Assembly: GCF_011806405.1 (NCBI RefSeq)
Contig: NZ_JAATOW010000007.1
Coordinates: 1 to 64,000 of the forward strand
Reading direction: 5' to 3'
DNA length: 64,000 nt
DNA from: Pseudooceanicola sp. HF7
GTDB taxonomy: Bacteria > Pseudomonadota > Alphaproteobacteria > Rhodobacterales > Rhodobacteraceae
This document shows positions 14,466-52,049 of the stretch, in pieces. Below the pieces are notes generated by a model. It was not told the origin of the DNA, ran no database searches, and saw only the letters and a program-made list of their open reading frames with translations. The stretch's first letter is position 1. Each line of letters starts with the position of its first letter. Both the position numbers and the translations under genes were made by a program.

Positions 14466-14549
14466 GCCGCTAAAGTCCCACGCGATATTGCACCTTGCGC
14501 CCGGATGGGCCATCACCTGTGGGTGACGCCTATCCAGGAGCTTCCGGCC

Positions 14550-15485
14550 ATGAAAATCGCCTTCCAGATGGACCCGATCGGTCCTGTCGACATCAATGCA
14601 GACAGCACCTTCCGCCTGGCTGAAGAGGCCCAGGCGCGGGGCCATGAGCTTTTCTACTACACGCCGGACAAGCTGAGCTTCCAGGAAGGGCGGGTCACCG
14701 CGCTGGGGCAAAGCCTGCGCGTGCAGCGCGTCGCTGGCGATCACGCGATTCTGGGCGAGATGGAAGAGGTCGACCTGGCCGATTTCGACGTCGTCTGGCT
14801 GCGCCAGGACCCGCCTTTCGACATGTTCTACATCACCACGACCCATCTGCTGGACCGCATCCATCCCAAGACGCTGGTGGTCAACGATCCCTTCTGGGTC
14901 CGCAACTTCCCCGAAAAGCTGCTGGTCCTGAACTTCCCCGAGCTGACGCCGCCCACGACCATCGCCCGTGACCTCGGCACGATCCGGGCCTTCAAGGAAA
15001 AGCATGGCGATGTGATCCTGAAGCCGCTCTACGGCAATGGCGGCGCGGGCGTGTTCCGACTGGATGCCAACGATCGCAACCTGTCCTCTCTTTACGAGCT
15101 CTTCTCCGGCTTCTCGCGCGAGCCGCTGATCGTGCAGAAGTTCCTGCCGGCCGTGTCCAAGGGCGACAAGCGGGTGATCCTGGTCGATGGTGAGCCGGTC
15201 GGCGCGATCAACCGCGTGCCCGCCGCCGGTGAGACGCGCTCCAACATGCACGTGGGGGGACGGCCCGAAAAGGTCGCCCTGACCGACCGCGACCTTGAGA
15301 TCTGCGCGGCCATCGGCCCGGTCCTGAAGGAAAAGGGCCAGGTCTTCGTCGGGATCGACGTGATCGGGGACTGGCTGACAGAGATCAACGTGACCTCGCC
15401 CACCGGGATCCAGGAACTGGAGCGTTTCGACGGTGTGAACATCGCCGAGAAGATCTGGCAGGCGATCGAAGCCCGGCGCGCCTAA
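14550..15485 (+). CDS. gshB: Glutathione synthetase
   Basis: The enzyme has 311 aa and ligates glycine to gamma-glutamylcysteine using ATP. The typical N-terminus [20 protein letters not shown] and the ATP-grasp segments ([17 protein letters not shown], late [14 protein letters not shown]) are clear. The start at 14550 fits the family and has AGGAGC upstream; an in-frame ATG at 14505 adds an unsupported 15 aa. Its stop overlaps the comM stop by 4 bp, tail to tail. A GST lies just beyond comM, although on the other strand. Confidence 0.96.
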
Positions 15486-45500: not shown

Positions 45501-45693
45501 TCCGTCTCTCCTCTTGCCGTTTTGCCCTGCAATTCAGGGGACTTGCTGCAAGACGGACAAGGTCATAAAAGTCGGTGACTTGCCGATCCTGCACGGTTCA
45601 AGGATTGCATTGGTTTTGTAAAAAGCAAGCAAAACAAAGGTATTGCCGCCGCATAGCACAGGATTTGGGCGAAGTGCGGCAAAGGGGGCGTTT

Positions 45694-46008
45694 ATGAATG
45701 TATACGGTATCAAGAATTGCGACACCTGTCGCAAGGCCTTGAAAGAGCTGGAAAATCCAGAGCTTGTTGATATCCGGCACGACGGGCTGCCCGAAGCACT
45801 GCTGCAGCGGGCTGCCGAAACATTCGGCAACGATCTGCTCAACCGCAGGTCGACGACCTGGCGCGGCCTGGACGAGGCAGAGCGCGAGAAGGGCATCCAA
45901 GAGCTGCTGCGCGCCCATCCGCTGCTGATGAAACGCCCGCTCATCGAAGCGGGCGATCAGCTTTATCTTGGCTGGGGGCCAGAGGTGCGCGCGGCCCTGG
46001 TTGGCTAG
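45694..46008 (+). CDS. ArsC/Spx-family thioredoxin-fold protein
   Basis: The protein has 104 aa. It begins with MNVYGIKNCDTCRKALKEL: a CxxC (Cys9 and Cys12) at the start of a thioredoxin-like fold, as in the YffB/Spx branch of the ArsC family. Arsenate reductase activity is not implied, since classic ArsC has a different Cys setting. The start at 45694 follows AAGGGGG. It converges on the bufferin operon with only 12 bp between stops. Confidence 0.82.
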   Translation: MNVYGIKNCDTCRKALKELENPELVDIRHDGLPEALLQRAAETFGNDLLNRRSTTWRGLDEAEREKGIQELLRAHPLLMKRPLIEAGDQLYLGWGPEVRAALVG

Positions 46009-46020
46009 GGCGCGACGGGG

Positions 46021-46569
46021 CTAGGGCGTGACGGGCGCAGGCGATGTCGCGCGAAAGACCAGCCGGTCCAGCGCCAGTGCCCCGCCCCCCATCAGCCCCG
46101 GCACCAGCAACAGGAACACCCAGAGCGCCCGCTGATCCAGCACCACGCCGGCGGGCATCCTGTCGAACCAGGCGCCCAGCGTCGCGGCATGGGCGATGCC
46201 GCCATGTCCGTATAGATCGGTCAGGCTCTGCACCGCGATGAAGCCGATCATCCCGAAGCTTGCCAACCGCGTCAGCAGGCCCAGCACCACCATCAGCGGC
46301 AGCAGGAACTCTGCCCAGGTGCCGGCCACCACGATCAGCCATTGCAGCCAGCTCATCTGCGCGGCGTCATAGCCCGCCGCCTCGAAGGCGCGCGGAAAGA
46401 TCTGCCCGTAGGCCCCGGCAGAGGGGTGCAGAAAGCCGAAGATCCCATCGCCCAGCTTTGTCAGGGCCGAGCTCCAGAAATAGGTCAGCAGCACGGCGGC
46501 AAAAAGGAACCGCGCCAGGACCGGCAGGGCAGGGCTGAGCCGGGACAGCGGCTGGGTCGGATCTGTCAT
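46021..46569 (-). CDS. DoxX-family membrane protein of the bufferin operon
   Basis: The protein has 182 aa with four predicted membrane helices; the DoxX pattern includes ARFLFAAVLLTYFWSSALTKL and AEFLLPLMVVLGLLTR. It is the last gene of the operon, its start overlapping the bufC stop by 4 bp. DoxX proteins recur in bufferin loci and are thought to act as a quinone-linked redox partner in the membrane. A link to the oxidative maturation step is inference. Confidence 0.88.
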   Translation of the reverse strand: MTDPTQPLSRLSPALPVLARFLFAAVLLTYFWSSALTKLGDGIFGFLHPSAGAYGQIFPRAFEAAGYDAAQMSWLQWLIVVAGTWAEFLLPLMVVLGLLTRLASFGMIGFIAVQSLTDLYGHGGIAHAATLGAWFDRMPAGVVLDQRALWVFLLLVPGLMGGGALALDRLVFRATSPAPVTP

Positions 46570-47318
46570 CTGGGAACCTCCAGGTCGGTGATAGCCCCCC
46601 GGGCCAGCAAAAGGCCCAGCAGGTCGGTCAGTGGCGCCTCATCGCCATCGCTGGCCGCATGGGCTTCGGAGACATTGGCGCCGTCCAGCAGGGCGCGCAT
46701 CATCAGGCCCTGGGGTTTGCTCAGCGGATCGGGGCGTGGGTCGTAGCCCGGGCGGCTGATCAGCACGTCCTGGGCCTGCGGGCGCGGCGCGGGGGCCTCT
46801 GCCTCATGGGCCTTGCGCCAGATGTCATGCAGGGGCCAGGCCGAGGGCAGCAGGCGCAGGGCGGGCGCAAAGCGCAGCCGGGCAAGAGGCAGGGCCTCTT
46901 GCGGCAGGGCGGCCAGTCGGTCGGGCGCGACCGGCGTGGCGTCGGCGGCGTGGTAGGAACTGCGCAGCGCCAGGTCCAGCCGGGCGGCATCGGGCAGGTA
47001 GCCCATCTGGGCCACCGGCGCGAAACCGGCAAGGAAGTCGGGAAAGGCATCGCCATAGCGAAACATGCGCGGATCCCGCGGCGGATGGGCCCGCACGAAG
47101 GGCAGGGCGATGCGGCGCAGGTTGGTCTCTCCGATCAGCCGGGCCACGGTGGGGAACCCCTCCAGCACGGCCTCTGTCAGGCTGGCGGCCACGTTGTTGC
47201 GATAGACATCGAACCGCCGCCCCACAGGCCCGCCCCGCCCGTCGCCAAGCGCCTCCGGCGGTGGCAGGGCAGGATCCAGAAGGGCGGCGCGGAAACCGGC
47301 TTGCAGGACGCGGGTCAT
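46566..47318 (-). CDS. bufC: BufC: DUF2063 partner of the DUF692 enzyme
   Basis: The protein has 250 aa. The DUF2063 N-terminal domain is clear (FRAALLD.., [25 protein letters not shown], later [20 protein letters not shown] and [21 protein letters not shown]). Such proteins bind the precursor peptide and its DUF692 enzyme and are needed for modification in related RiPP systems. It starts in the ATGA shared with bufB and ends in the ATGA shared with doxX, so the three products are made together. Confidence 0.9.
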
Positions 47319-48169
47319 GACGGTTGCACCGGCGCCAGCGCCGCCTCTGCCCGGCGCGCCTGCGTGGCCAGCACGGGCCAGTCGGGCACGTCGTTGTCCC
47401 ATTCGATCAAGAGCGGCCTGGGCCCCGACAGCGCCAGCACCGCCTCCAGCAGCGCCCAGACCGGATCGGCCACCTCGCGCCCGTGGCTGTCGATCAGCAG
47501 GGGCCGGCCGGCCTCGTCTTCTTCCTCGTCATGGCCGCCCAGGTGGATTTCGCCGACGGCGGCCATGGGGAAATCGCCGACATAGGCCAGAGGATCCAGG
47601 CCAAGGTTCACGGCAGAGACGAAGACATTGTTCACGTCCAGCAGCAGCCCGCAGCCAGTGCGCCGGGCGACCTCGCGCAGGAACTCGGTCTCGGGCATCT
47701 CGCTTTCCTCGAAGGCCAGGTAGCTCGAGGGGTTCTCAAGCAGCATCGGCCGTCCGACCGCCTCTTGCAGCTGGTCGATATGGCGGCAGACCCGCGCCAG
47801 CGTCTCGCCCGTGTAGGGCAGGGGCAGCAGGTCGTTCAGAAAGGCGCTGTCATGTGTGGACCAGGCAAGGTGCTCTGAAAAGCTGGCCGGTTGCAGCCAG
47901 TCGCAGAGCTGGCGCAGGCGGTCCAGGTGGGCCGGGTCCAGCGGCCCTTCGCCGCCGATCGACAGGCCCACGCCATGGACCGAGACGGGGAAGCGCTCCG
48001 CCAGGTGGCGCAGCTGGGCCAGGGGCCGTCCGCCCGCGCCCATGTAATTCTCTGCATGGATCTCCAGCCAGCGGACGGGGGCGGGATCTGCCATGATCTG
48101 CGCGTAATGCCGGGCCTTGTAGCCCACGCCGGGGGCGGCGGGCAGGCGGGGGTGGCTGTGATCGAACAT
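47315..48169 (-). CDS. bufB: BufB: DUF692 multinuclear non-haem iron oxidase
   Basis: The protein has 284 aa. It is a TIM-barrel DUF692/MNIO enzyme of the MbnB/TglH type, with the expected His/Glu/Asp/Asn ligand segments: [52 protein letters not shown] and LIEWDND. In bufferin systems this enzyme oxidises Cys residues of the precursor to thiooxazole rings that bind copper. The start at 48169 has GGAG 7 nt upstream. It overlaps bufC (ATGA) and is separated from bufA by a strong stem-loop. Confidence 0.92.
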
Positions 48170-48202
48170 GCGGGGCTCCATCGGATCAGGTGCTGAAGAA
48201 CG

Positions 48203-48239
48203 GGTCCGGCGCAGGCAGGTGCGGTGCCTGCGCCGGACC
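48203..48239 (-). promoter_or_regulatory. Strong stem-loop between bufA and bufB
   Basis: A perfect 15-bp stem (48203-48217 with 48225-48239) closes a 7-nt loop. It begins 8 nt after the bufA stop and ends about 33 nt before the bufB start. No T tract follows on the minus strand, so it is more likely a 3'-end stabiliser or partial attenuator that keeps bufA mRNA in excess than a full terminator. Confidence 0.75.
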
Positions 48240-48247
48240 ATTCGCAA

Positions 48248-48553
48248 TCAGCCGTCCATCGGCAGGTCGCGATCCAGCGGCTCAAGCGAGCCCATGCGCG
48301 CGTGGTCATCCATCTTCGGCAGCTCGATCTCCATGCAGGTGCCGGCGTCCACGAAGGTCCAGGCATTGCCCTGGTAATCCACGGTCGACGTGCCGGCGCA
48401 GGTGGTGCCGGGGCCGGCGGCGCAATCGTTCTCTCCGGCCATGGAAACGCCGTAGCATTTCTCCTGCGCGGCCTGCGCATGGGCGACGGAGCTGGCGGCA
48501 AGAGCGGCTGCGAAGGCCCCGGCGACGGCGACGATGTTCCTGGTGTTGGACAT
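48248..48553 (-). CDS. bufA: BufA: bufferin precursor (DUF2282), secreted metallophore
   Basis: The protein has 101 aa. A Sec signal peptide (about 1-26, AHA cleavage) is followed by the bufferin core: [27 protein letters not shown] and GTCMEIE. Four Cys at 33, 44, 52 and 73 match the family. In Caulobacter such precursors are cytoplasmically modified by BufB/BufC, exported and used to buffer copper in the periplasm. After the family-typical GSLEPL (88-93) comes a short acidic tail ending PMDG. It is first in the operon, with a candidate sigma-F promoter about 65 bp upstream. Confidence 0.92.
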
Positions 48554-48617
48554 TTGGATCTCTCCCTTGGGGTATCTCTGGATCTGGCGGCGCCCTCATG
48601 GCGTCCGTGTCTCTCCA

Positions 48618-48643
48618 TTCGCGGCGGGAGCCTGGGATGTTAC
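48618..48643 (-). promoter_or_regulatory. Candidate SigF-type ECF promoter of bufA-bufB-bufC-doxX
   Basis: On the minus strand GTAACA (48643-48638) is separated by exactly 16 nt from CGAA (48621-48618). This matches the GTAACC-N16-CGAA motif reported for Caulobacter sigma-F in all but one -35 base. Transcription would start near 48611, giving a leader of about 58 nt before bufA. Confidence 0.75.
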
Positions 48644-48690
48644 ACCGCTCACGAACAGGTGAACCCGTTGCAGAAAATCCGTGAGGGGCT

Positions 48691-48716
48691 GTAACGTTTC
48701 CCCTGCCTCCTGCGAA
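48691..48716 (+). promoter_or_regulatory. Candidate SigF-type ECF promoter of sigF-nrsF
   Basis: GTAACG (48691-48696), exactly 16 nt, then CGAA (48713-48716). It has the same architecture as the opposing bufA promoter and implies autoregulation. Transcription would start near 48722-48724, only a few bases before the sigF ATG at 48728, so the message would be nearly leaderless. Confidence 0.7.
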
Positions 48717-48727
48717 AGGAGAGGGGA

Positions 48728-49324
48728 ATGACCGAGAGAAACGCGCAATGGGGCGACCTGCTCAGACGTGCCAACCGGGGCGAAGCCGCGGCCTATGCGC
48801 GATTCCTGACAGAGGTGGTGCCGGTGATCCGCAACATCGCCCGGGCCCGCAGCCCGCATGGCGCGGATGAGGTAGAGGATATCGTGCAAGAGGTCCTCTT
48901 GGCGCTGCACGCCAAGCGTCATACATGGCGCGAAAGCGATCCCGTGACCCCGTGGCTTTACGCCATCGTGCGCTACAAGACCGCCGATGCGGCCCGCAAG
49001 CGGCGCGCCGGCGGGGGCCGCCAGGTCCCGATCGACGATCTGGCCGATGTCCTGCCCGACGACACGGCAGGAGAGGTCACGGCCGCAGGCGATCTCACCC
49101 GCCTTCTGGGAGAGATCGATGACCGCTCCGCCGGGATCGTCCGCGCGGTCGGGGTCGAAGGGCAAAGCGCCGGGGAAGTCGGCGCAAGGCTCGGCATGAG
49201 CGAAGGCGCGGTGCGCGTGGCCTACCACAGGGCCCTGCAACGCCTGCGCGACAAGGCCGGCGCAGTCGGCACCGGGCAGGCGAAGCAGCCGCGCCCGGCC
49301 AAAGTAGACGAGAGACTGGAATGA
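48728..49324 (+). CDS. sigF: ECF sigma factor, SigF-like
   Basis: The protein has 198 aa. Region 2 (about 20-90: EVVPVIRNIARARSPHGADE, VEDIVQEVLLALHAKRHTW, VTPWLYAIVRYKTADAARKR) and region 4 (about 125-180: EGQSAGEVGARLGMSEGAVR, VAYHRALQRLR) are intact. Its overlapping partner is an NrsF-type anti-sigma, the pairing known from Caulobacter SigF, which responds to dichromate, cadmium and other thiol-reactive stress. AGGAGAGGGG precedes the ATG. It diverges from bufA with paired candidate promoters between them. Confidence 0.9.
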   Translation: MTERNAQWGDLLRRANRGEAAAYARFLTEVVPVIRNIARARSPHGADEVEDIVQEVLLALHAKRHTWRESDPVTPWLYAIVRYKTADAARKRRAGGGRQVPIDDLADVLPDDTAGEVTAAGDLTRLLGEIDDRSAGIVRAVGVEGQSAGEVGARLGMSEGAVRVAYHRALQRLRDKAGAVGTGQAKQPRPAKVDERLE

Positions 49325-49962
49325 ACACCGATGATCTCATAGCCGGCCTGGCCCGCGACCCCGCGCCAGCCACGGGTACCGGCCCTGAAAAGCGCCTCTT
49401 GCCGGTCCTGCTGGCGGGGCTGGCGGTGACGCTGGCGCTTTTCTTCCTGGTGCTGGGGCCGCGCCCGGACCTGATGGCGGCGCTGTCCGATCCGCTGATC
49501 GCGGCCAAGACACTGATGCCCCTGCTGCTGGGGGTGCTGGCGCTGATCCTGTCGCTGCGCGCCGCACGTCCGGCCGCGCCCTTCGGCCTGCCGGGCACGC
49601 TGATCTGGGCGGTGCCGGCGGCGGCGGCGGCGCTTTTCGTGCTGGCCTTCATGACCACGGTGCCGCCCGCACGGCTGCCGGCCTTCATCGGCCATTCCAT
49701 CCCGATTTGCCTGCCCGCCATCCCGCTCTTGTCGCTGCCCATGCTGGCCGGTCTGATCACGGCCCTGCGGCGGGGGGCGCCCGTGCACCCGGCGCGCTGC
49801 GGCGCCCTTGCGGGGCTGGCGGCGGCGGGCCTGGCCACGGCGATCTATTCCACCTTCTGCATCGAGGATTCGCCGCTCTTCTATGCGGTCTGGTACACGG
49901 CCGGGATCGGCATCGCCTCTGCCCTGGGCGCAATTCTGGGGGCCCGCTGGCTGAACTGGTAG
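49321..49962 (+). CDS. nrsF: NrsF-type membrane anti-sigma factor (DUF1109)
   Basis: The protein has 213 aa with six predicted membrane helices (about 26-46, 62-80, 94-112, 122-143, 160-177 and 190-208) and a short cytoplasmic N-terminus. Cys130 (SIPIC) and Cys180 (YSTFC) fall where the two conserved redox or metal-sensing Cys of Caulobacter NrsF lie; Cys160 is extra. It should hold SigF at the membrane until metal or oxidative insult. Its start overlaps the sigF stop by 4 bp. Confidence 0.9.
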   Translation: MNTDDLIAGLARDPAPATGTGPEKRLLPVLLAGLAVTLALFFLVLGPRPDLMAALSDPLIAAKTLMPLLLGVLALILSLRAARPAAPFGLPGTLIWAVPAAAAALFVLAFMTTVPPARLPAFIGHSIPICLPAIPLLSLPMLAGLITALRRGAPVHPARCGALAGLAAAGLATAIYSTFCIEDSPLFYAVWYTAGIGIASALGAILGARWLNW

Positions 49963-50066: not shown

Positions 50067-52049
50067 TTATTCCGCGGCCAGTTTTGCCGCCTTGGCCTTG
50101 GCCTTGGCCAGGTCCGGCGGCGTGGCCTCTGCCGCGATCTGGGCGACGATCTCGTCCAGGGTCTGCGTCTTCGTCTGCTTCTCGCCAAGGCGGCGGGTAG
50201 AGACGGTGCGCTCTTCGACCTCGCGGTTCCCGCAGGCCAGGATATAGGGCACCTTGCCGACCGAGTGTTCGCGGACCTTGTAGTTGATCTTCTCGTTGCG
50301 CAGGTCGGCCTCGGCGCGCACGCCGGCGGCTTTCAGCGCCTCGACCACCTCAAGGCAATAGTCATCCGCATCAGAGACGATGGCCGCCACGACCACCTGG
50401 CGCGGAGCCAGCCAGATCGGCAGCTTGCCGGCGTGTTCCTCGATCAGGATGCCGATGAAGCGCTCGAAAGAGCCCACCACGGCGCGGTGCAACATGATCG
50501 GGTGATGCTTCTCGCCGTCCTGGCCGATGTAATGCGCCTCAAGCCGCTCGGGCAGGTTCGGGTCCACCTGCAGCGTGCCGCACTGCCAGTCGCGCCCGAT
50601 GGCATCGGTCAGCACGAATTCCAGCTTCGGCCCGTAAAACGCCCCTTCGCCGGGGTTGAGGGTGTAGTCGTACCCGGCCGCCTTGCAGGCATTGCCAAGC
50701 GCGGCTTCCACCTGGTCCCAGCTTTCCTCTGTCCCCACGCGCTTTTCAGGGCGGGTGGACAGCTTCACGCTCCAGCTGTCAAAGCCGAGGTCGGCATAGA
50801 CCTTGGCAAGGAACTCGATGAACTTCTTCGATTCCGCCTCGATCTGGTCGACGGTGCAGAAGATATGCGCATCGTCCTGCGTGAAGCCGCGCACCCGCAT
50901 GATGCCATGCAGCGCGCCCGAGGGCTCATAGCGCGCGCAGGAACCGAACTCGGCCATGCGCAGCGGCAGGTCGCGGTAGGATTTCAGGCCGTGGTTGAAG
51001 ATCTGCACGTGGCAGGGGCAGTTCATCGGCTTCAGCGCGTTGATGGTCTTTTCGCGCGCGTGATCCTCGTCCACTTCGACGATGAACATGTTTTCCTGGT
51101 AGTTACCCCAGTGGCCGGAGGCCTCCCAGAGCTTGCGGTTCACGACCTGGGGGGTGTTGACCTCCACATAGCCGTCAGCGCGCTGCTGGCGGCGCATGTA
51201 ATCCTGAAGCTCGGTGTATACCGTCCAGCCGTTGGGGTGCCAGAAGACCTGGCCCGGGGCCTCTTCCTGCATATGGAACAGGTCCATCTCGCGGCCCAGC
51301 TTGCGGTGGTCGCGCTTGGCGGCCTCTTCCAGCATCAGCAGGTGGGCTTTCAGCTTTTCCTTGCCGGTGAAGGCCACGCCGTAGATCCGTTGCAGCATCG
51401 GGCGGTCGCTGTCGCCGCGCCAGTAGGCGCCGGCCACCGACATCAGCTTGAAGGCATCGCCGGGCACCTGGCCGGTGTGCTGCAGGTGCGGGCCACGGCA
51501 CAGGTCCTGCCAGTCGCCGTGCCAGTACATGCGCAGCGGCTCATCGCCGGGAATGCTCTCGATCAGCTCGACCTTGTAGGGCTCGCCCCGGTCCTCGTAG
51601 TACTTGATCGCCACGTCGCGGTCCCAGACCTCCGTGCGGACGGGATCGCGAAGATTGATGATTTCCTTCATCTTCTTCTCGATCTCGCCCAGGTCCTCGG
51701 GGGTAAAGGGCTCTTCGCGGTCGAAATCGTAATACCAGCCGTCCTTGATGACGGGGCCGATGGTGACCTTCACGTCCGGCCACAGCTCCTGCACGGCGCG
51801 GGCCATGATATGGGCCAGGTCGTGGCGCACCAGCTCATTGGCCTGCGCTTCGTCCTTCATCGTGTGGATGGCGATGCTGGCGTCGCCCTCGATCGGCCAC
51901 TGAAGATCCCAGTGCTGGCCGTTGACGGTGGCGGAAATGGCTTTCTTCGCAAGGGAGTTGGAGATCCCGGCAGCCACGTCGGCAGGCGTGATGCCCGCGT
52001 CGTAGTCGCGCGAATTGCCATCGGGGAAAGTGAGAGAGATCTGGGACAT
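50067..52049 (-). CDS. thrS: Threonyl-tRNA synthetase
   Basis: The protein has 660 aa. An N-terminal TGS domain (about 1-62) is followed by the editing domain ([12 protein letters not shown] motif with HxxxH, then the Cys/His site around [10 protein letters not shown]), the class II catalytic core with zinc ligands in [13 protein letters not shown] and [11 protein letters not shown], and an anticodon-binding tail. It charges tRNA-Thr. The start at 52049 is preceded by AGGAGGACAGG. It is monocistronic. Confidence 0.97.

Follow-up and report, generated by a model that had tools for sequence, protein, structure and literature searches.

A bufferin-1 locus of Pseudooceanicola sp. HF7 with its own SigF/NrsF pair and a predicted CenR box at the bufA promoter

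Bufferins, metal-binding peptides that were described only recently, are very common, and the DUF2282 precursor gene was found in 211 of the 295 genomes of the family Rhodobacteraceae that were scanned here for DUF2282 and NrsF. In Buf1 bufferins, modification falls on the central cysteines, the outer pair is joined in a disulfide, and thiooxazoles sequester copper in the periplasm; these peptides have been reported to chelate Cu(I)/Cu(II) and to aid growth in copper (PMC12452194). The closest described locus is Caulobacter CC3252-CC3257, for which the text of PMC3511200 gives an operon of DUF2282, DUF692, DUF2063 and DoxX genes beside sigF-nrsF, GTAAC(C)-N16/17-CGAA promoters on both sides, and two conserved NrsF cysteines 50 residues apart. 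The same arrangement is found in a stretch of 64,000 nucleotides from Pseudooceanicola sp. HF7 (contig NZ_JAATOW010000007.1, positions 1 to 64,000; hereafter the window), in which six genes at 46021-49962 comprise a minus-strand bufA, bufB, bufC and doxX operon, divergent from the genes of an extracytoplasmic function (ECF) sigma factor and of NrsF.

A sequence-only reading of this DNA had proposed these six genes, with homologues under SigF/NrsF control in Caulobacter, and a single precursor. The genes are where it had placed them, the order agrees with CC3252-CC3257 (PMC3511200) and with the Buf1 clusters in the account of PMC12452194, and profile searches matched all four families that it had named (DUF2282, DUF692, DUF2063 and DUF1109, now NrsF). 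A profile search of the 97%-complete genome gave one DUF2282, one MNIO and one NrsF, so the single precursor holds for DUF2282, Buf2 and EGKCG precursors not having been searched separately; in Caulobacter, two DUF2282 genes are described under sigma-F (PMC3511200). The locus is an ordinary, sound member of the published bufferin-1/sigF kind, the cluster itself being expected, and is very probably a bufferin-1 gene cluster under SigF/NrsF control. The genes and architecture are already published; what is new here is a regulatory layer, namely a CenR-like box at bufA. No link between CenR/CenK and bufferins was found among the literature matches listed, in a search that did not extend to subscription papers, most preprints and supplements. 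This predicted second, conserved input at the bufA promoter makes the Rhodobacterales form a variant of the bufferin-1/SigF kind. Unlike the window, the top two NrsF-model loci (L165 and L166), which were taken as Caulobacteraceae, have no such box beside the bufA -35.

A conserved box at the bufA promoter

In the window, the palindrome TCAC-N6-GTGA lies just upstream of the -35 element of bufA. A relaxed form of this box, YAC-N6-GYGW, precedes the bufA -35 by 4-7 bases in 22 of 24 SigF-bearing loci of the family, and the sigF-side -35 of the same loci in 0 of 24 (shuffles: mean 0.08, maximum 2). These belong to 37 distinct loci (24 from the family and 13 from other alphaproteobacterial families), taken from 67 with sigF by requiring a divergent ECF16 pair and dropping duplicates; the 67 are made up of 9 from a set of 81 loci and 58 from a further set. 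The 81-locus set consists of the window and 80 named loci, nearly all roseobacter-type, which are the best 80 of at least 579 confirmed places. Within it, sigF lies inside the locus in 9 of 81, and the locus contains none in 72 (among them L122, which has no upstream sequence to judge). "SigF-less" here means that the fetched locus holds no sigF, and L021, L023 and L032 are so counted though their genomes (G274, G275 and G135) carry NrsF elsewhere.

The box is also widespread where sigF is absent. A stricter pattern, CAC-N6-GTGA or TCAC-N6-GTG, which was used for this count as the relaxed forms were for the YAC-N6-GYGW count and the MsrB count below, is found in 56 of 71 SigF-less loci (leaving out L122) and in 6 of 9 SigF-bearing loci, with shuffle means of 1.9 and 0.3, respectively. 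Spacers of 2 to 13 other than 6 reach at most 12 of the 71 SigF-less promoters. Here, as in the MsrB and matrix counts below, the shuffles were regenerated from a first-order Markov model; owing to the kinship of the loci, these comparisons overstate their independence. The alignment of 53 SigF-less promoters gave the consensus TgACgN5GTGAnaCACggncncGTGAnTgg, and a loose tandem copy of the box lies 15 bp upstream in 42 of them. The roseobacter operons without sigF (e.g., Ruegeria, Sulfitobacter and Roseovarius; L071-L150) share with the window the genes, the RDLP-type BufA tail, the neighbours and the box, but differ from it in having no sigF/nrsF and, often, a duplicate of the box 15 bp upstream.

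Two further ideas about the box were rejected. The first was that the exact bufA-type box governs many genes in this genome; a scan gave 9 matches at up to two mismatches against 1 in the control, with only bufA exact, and the one-mismatch match falls in an apparent coding frame. A dedicated regulator encoded beside the operons was dismissed as the binder, since an ArsR-type gene occurs in 13 loci only, several kb away, and the commonest neighbours among 25 gene clusters, named by eye, are thrS and genes of the MFS, Spx/ArsC-like and cold-shock types. As for the Caulobacter system, the identity of a second regulator at its sigF promoter was left open by Kohler et al. (PMC3511200); the bufA box is no direct answer, their case concerning the sigF side.

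Elsewhere in the window, a second TCAC-N6-GTGA palindrome (TCACCTGTGGGTGA) is located at 14513-14526, its end lying 23 bp ahead of the probable start codon (ATG at 14550) of a glutathione synthetase-like gene; about 0.4 such palindromes are expected per window.

CenR as the candidate regulator

For CenR of Rhodobacter sphaeroides, part of the essential two-component system CenKR of the cell envelope, 31 sites have been published, 28 of which lie directly upstream of the -35. One of them is TCACCTCCTCGTGAG, cenR carries a site of its own (ACACGAGCGCGTGAG), and the targets include cytoplasmic msrA and an SCP/PR1-type protein (PMC9275681). In S. meliloti, the srlA promoter has a CenR-linked repeat, AGTCAC-N6-GTGACT, adjoining the -35, and point mutations reduced its activity (PMC9561847). 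The bufA box of the window resembles both the R. sphaeroides CenKR regulon and the srlA repeat in sequence and in its place directly before the -35, although bufferin genes are not named in the searched passages of these two accounts (PMC9275681, PMC9561847).

When a matrix was built from the 31 published sites, the bufA box in one orientation had the best score among all 127,972 15-mers of the window, and 58 of 80 bufA promoters scored above the 95% shuffle score. The window thus has a predicted CenR-type site directly before a -35 element. In addition, an OmpR-type regulator of the same genome (L258, G000:C16), chosen as the CenR candidate by its own box and its aspartate positions rather than by comparison with the CenR sequence, shares residues D11-D13 and D56 with the published description of CenR, and ACACGAGAGCGTGAG lies 88 bp before its gene. 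Because the bufA box is like the published sites in sequence and position, and the candidate of this genome has a box as well, we infer that CenR acts at bufA. Our confidence was lowered slightly because this candidate lacks Asp51; it still appears probable that the box binds CenR, so that bufA would be co-activated by the CenKR envelope system, on which relatives without SigF/NrsF would rely.

The wider distribution of the box was also surveyed. The double box pattern has 51 matches in 149 family genomes, against 14 for the reversed control, and 30 of the 51 were read: 13 precede DUF2282, and one each precedes DUF692, MsrA, a CAP-domain protein and a fasciclin-like protein. Another box match precedes a Tat-type MsrB in a relative. 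Among the MsrB promoters of family relatives, a relaxed spacer-6 box is present in 12 of 22 (shuffles: mean 0.9, maximum 3); the set was drawn from 61 genomes, of which 23 matched and 22 of 23 loci were usable. On balance, and by a narrow judgement, we favour placing the Rhodobacterales bufferin operon in the CenKR regulon, where CenR boxes would drive it in most SigF-less genomes and a minority, including the window, would add the ECF16 SigF/NrsF switch. A CenR-like box at bufA may tie copper buffering to an essential alphaproteobacterial envelope-stress system and may account for how most relatives do without SigF/NrsF; if so, copper buffering and periplasmic methionine repair may be core envelope maintenance and not only a metal-specific response.

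Two observations on individual loci are recorded here. In L207, the double-box match precedes the gene of a secreted protein, fasciclin-like by eye, whose first 60 residues gave no Pfam match. A bufA-like box is carried by the MsrB (in one case MsrA) promoters of the relatives L156, L197 and L222-L244.

Several points weigh against the assignment to CenR and its regulon. In other alphaproteobacterial families, the box is present at bufA in only 4 of 13 loci and absent from 9 of 13 (sigF side, 0 of 13), and in the genome of the window the longer box pattern is exact at bufA only. By the CenR matrix, the bufA box ranks 7th of the 127,972 15-mers when read in the bufA direction, and only 15 of 80 bufA promoters exceed the 99% shuffle score. 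The candidate L258 is without the D51 described for CenR, and another regulator, L257, has D51 and D56 with no box. No recognisable target followed 13 of the 30 double-box matches that were read, and MsrB of the type searched for was not found in the genome of the window. The text of the R. sphaeroides CenR paper does not contain DUF692, DUF2282, DoxX or copper, a bufferin operon in that species not having been searched for.

The main alternative is that the box is bound not by CenR but by another regulator with a similar palindrome, either another OmpR-family protein or another factor. Such a binder might be sought among the 11 Trans_reg_C matches of the genome, the choice of the CenR candidate relied on its own box and aspartates, D51 is missing from it, and a related repeat is known at S. 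meliloti chvI too (PMC9561847). We consider this possible but rather unlikely, in view of the resemblance to the published CenR data in box sequence, in the position adjacent to the -35 and in the box at the candidate's own gene, and of the occurrence of msrA and an SCP/PR1-type protein among the published CenR targets. If CenR is the binder, the description of the system as self-contained in the sequence-only reading is possibly too strong: the locus does have its own sigF/nrsF pair, but the CenR acting at the bufA box would be encoded elsewhere in the genome.

Proposed peptide maturation, copper role and SigF/NrsF switch

The BufA precursor scores 84.7 bits against PF10048 (cut-off 22.4) and has a signal peptide, as judged by eye. 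Its cysteines, which the sequence-only reading had put at 33, 44, 52 and 73, are indeed spaced C33-X10-C44-X7-C52-X20-C73 in the translation, and this spacing and an RDLP-type ending are identical in 81 of 81 loci, a count biased toward the type of the window by the make-up of the set (best-scoring named loci plus the window itself). The C-terminal tail GSLExLxRDLP lies outside the Pfam domain and is conserved in roseobacter-type loci (48248-48553; L012-L041, L071-L150). In a second set of 30 family loci, 10 are without the RDLP ending and have a short GMGSLEP-type ending instead, and in L024 and L036 of that set RDLP is found inside a longer tail. It is possible that the tail acts as a docking signal for BufBC.

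BufB matches PF05114 (3e-103) and the NF050167 model MNIO_BufB ("MNIO family bufferin maturase") with 372.9 bits against a cut-off of 310, while falling below the cut-offs of the HvfB, ApyH, MbnB and ChrH models. Its D262 aligns with VcMbnB D240, which we take to have a catalytic role, and H69 aligns with the 3bww histidine taken as the first ligand. H104, E149, D182, N185, H213, D231, H233 and E260 align with the VcMbnB iron ligands as given in PMC8888699. BufB is thus a BufB-type MNIO with, judging by these alignments, an intact iron site. BufC stays below the NCBIfam HvfC model for the oxazolin partner (27.9 bits, cut-off 142). Its AlphaFold2 model, made from an alignment of 20 family members, has a mean pLDDT of 91.8 and matches chain A of the TglHI holoenzyme 8hci, taken as TglI (E 5.5e-06, TM 0.62/0.59), as well as chain A of the TglHI structure 8hi7 and the DUF2063 protein 3dee (E 0.011). 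By family and modelled fold, BufC is a partner protein of the DUF2063 + RRE-like kind (PME type 1), the RRE part being a prediction. Sequence searches of solved structures with BufC and BufA gave no matches. The last operon product is just under the PF07681 cut-off (22.0 vs 23.6 bits) and merits the label "DoxX-like" only; a homologue of its gene follows bufC in 76 of 81 loci, the window included. As in the oxazolin/fontiphorin ("captophorin") clusters, methanobactin MbnABC and TglHI, an MNIO with its partner would act on peptide cysteines, but the precursor in the window differs from theirs in being a DUF2282 protein.

By analogy with Caulobacter and other relatives, we infer for this organism the following chemistry, part in copper buffering and mode of action of NrsF. 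BufA would be synthesised with a signal peptide; the multinuclear iron enzyme BufB, together with BufC, would oxidise Cys44 and Cys52 to thiooxazoles, Cys33 and Cys73 would form a disulfide, and the exported peptide would buffer periplasmic copper. NrsF may keep SigF bound through Cys130/Cys180 until metal or oxidant disturbs it, whereupon the freed SigF would fire both divergent promoters and CenR, at the bufA box, would co-activate bufA alongside sigma-F. Metal induction, which had been proposed for this system, would likewise be expected from Caulobacter; a section heading of PMC3511200, by which metal resistance there requires neither sigma-F nor two DUF692 genes, tempers this expectation.

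Alternatively, the locus might serve mainly in defence against oxidants such as hypochlorite and reactive oxygen species (ROS), with SigF/NrsF sensing oxidised thiols, the thiol-rich peptide scavenging oxidant or shielding envelope proteins, and copper being secondary. The Brucella ECF16 system responds to HOCl and others to hypochlorite or oxidants, including ROS and reactive chlorine, Msr genes are common to several ECF16 regulons (PMC8315932), and in relatives a bufA-like box precedes MsrB genes and, in one case, MsrA. Nevertheless, this appears unlikely, as both chelation of Cu(I)/Cu(II) and a benefit to growth in copper have been reported for Buf1 bufferins (PMC12452194), and the sigma-F genes of Caulobacter were not induced by ROS-generating agents (PMC3511200). 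As to the product, BufB could form oxazolone-thioamide groups, as first reported for oxazolin; these differ from a thiooxazole only by an O/S exchange and are hard to distinguish from it (PMC13097082). Since 5-thiooxazoles have been assigned in the characterised cases, bufferin 1 and the EGKCG peptides (PMC13097082), and BufB is above the bufferin maturase cut-off, such a product is improbable, and thiooxazole formation by BufB remains the preferred reading.

The 174-bp divergent gap holds two exact GTAAC-N17-CGAA sites, each with a T before it, in agreement with the ECF16 consensus (T/C)GTAAC-N17-CGAA for the promoters of sigma genes and their targets (PMC8315932), and, apart from the sixth base, with the Caulobacter sigma-F consensus GTAACC-N16-CGAA (PMC3511200). 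Chance was rejected as the source of the pair: over the 4.27-Mb genome as a whole, the pattern (10 sites) does not exceed its reversed control (16), yet two sites fall within the 174-bp gap (Poisson 8e-8). SigF itself might recognise the box as an extension of its promoter, in keeping with the distance of 4-7 bases from the -35 in SigF-bearing loci, but this is very improbable given the 0 of 24 sigF-side promoters with a box and its presence before bufA in genomes without an NrsF match (e.g., G280, G111, G110, G024 and G022). SigF, which was called ECF16 by its partner and promoter rather than by a class model, groups in a tree with other NrsF-linked sigma factors. NrsF scores 102 bits, below the NCBIfam equivalog cut-off of 300; all 66 aligned rows have C130 and 56 of them have C180, and the two are 50 residues apart, the spacing of Caulobacter C131/C181.

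A wide sigma-F regulon was also considered and set aside, as the seven other ECF16 sites of this genome that were inspected, of eight (all but the one on C72), were not convincing apart from L008, which stays a candidate. This exact ECF16-type site (G000:C37:198652-198677) lies about 60 bp before an Lrp-type regulator gene and is a possible further sigma-F target.

Layout, distribution and history of the locus

The features of the locus are collected in Table 1. The starts of bufC and bufB were corrected from the sequence to the most likely positions, and four-base overlaps join bufB/bufC, bufC/doxX and sigF/nrsF.

Table 1. Genes and predicted regulatory elements of the bufferin locus (window positions)
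Feature	Position	Strand	Remarks
doxX-like membrane protein, 182 aa	46021..46569	-	last operon gene; PF07681 22.0 bits
bufC, DUF2063 partner protein, 250 aa	46566..47318	-	PF09836 1.4e-21; most likely ATG at 47318 overlaps bufB stop
bufB, MNIO iron enzyme, 288 aa from likely ATG (48181)	47315..48181	-	NF050167; open frame up to 48247
bufA, bufferin-1 precursor, 101 aa	48248..48553	-	PF10048 4.2e-24
Putative sigma-F (ECF16) promoter of bufABC-doxX, GTAAC-N17-CGAA	48618..48643	-	exact pattern match
Predicted CenR box TCACCTGTTCGTGA	48649..48662	-	five bases upstream of bufA -35 element GTAAC
Putative sigma-F (ECF16) promoter of sigF-nrsF, GTAAC-N17-CGAA	48691..48716	+	exact pattern match
sigF, ECF sigma factor, ECF16 type, 198 aa	48728..49324	+	Sigma70_r2 2.2e-10, Sigma70_r4 9.7e-09
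nrsF, membrane anti-sigma factor, 213 aa, Cys130 and Cys180	49321..49962	+	PF06532 8.1e-52

Among the 295 family genomes, NrsF is above the cut-off in 41 (46 at E 0.001), and DUF2282 and NrsF occur together in 34 of the 211 DUF2282 genomes, the lists being compared by eye. In the BufB tree, which leaves out L122 and L150, the window lies with Pseudooceanicola (L108, 81% identity; L077) in an 89-row branch that has 6 rows with SigF in the locus, and 8 changes are needed to place the SigF labels on its 110 rows. Eight SigF/NrsF rows form one clade with the window (98 SH-aLRT). Owing to the 8 label changes and the single clade, a recent import of sigF/nrsF into the window is disfavoured and was rejected; the trees fit an old pair with repeated loss. 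Spread by transfer may still have contributed, since two loci are discordant: L079 is SigF-bearing and in the BufB branch of the window yet outside its SigF clade, while L046 is inside that clade and the BufB of its genome (L031) is in the other branch, as a long broken row. The bufB of L031 matches in two overlapping frames on a long branch, which is possibly a frameshift. In another genome, two DUF2282 domains lie about 340 bp apart (G007:C18).

In the window, the operon is flanked by an Spx/ArsC-like gene (45643-46008) and thrS (50067-52049), both named by eye. Of the 81 loci, 71 have thrS close to the operon and 65 have the Spx/ArsC-like gene there; as these two genes flank it in most loci, the operon appears to be at an old, stable place.

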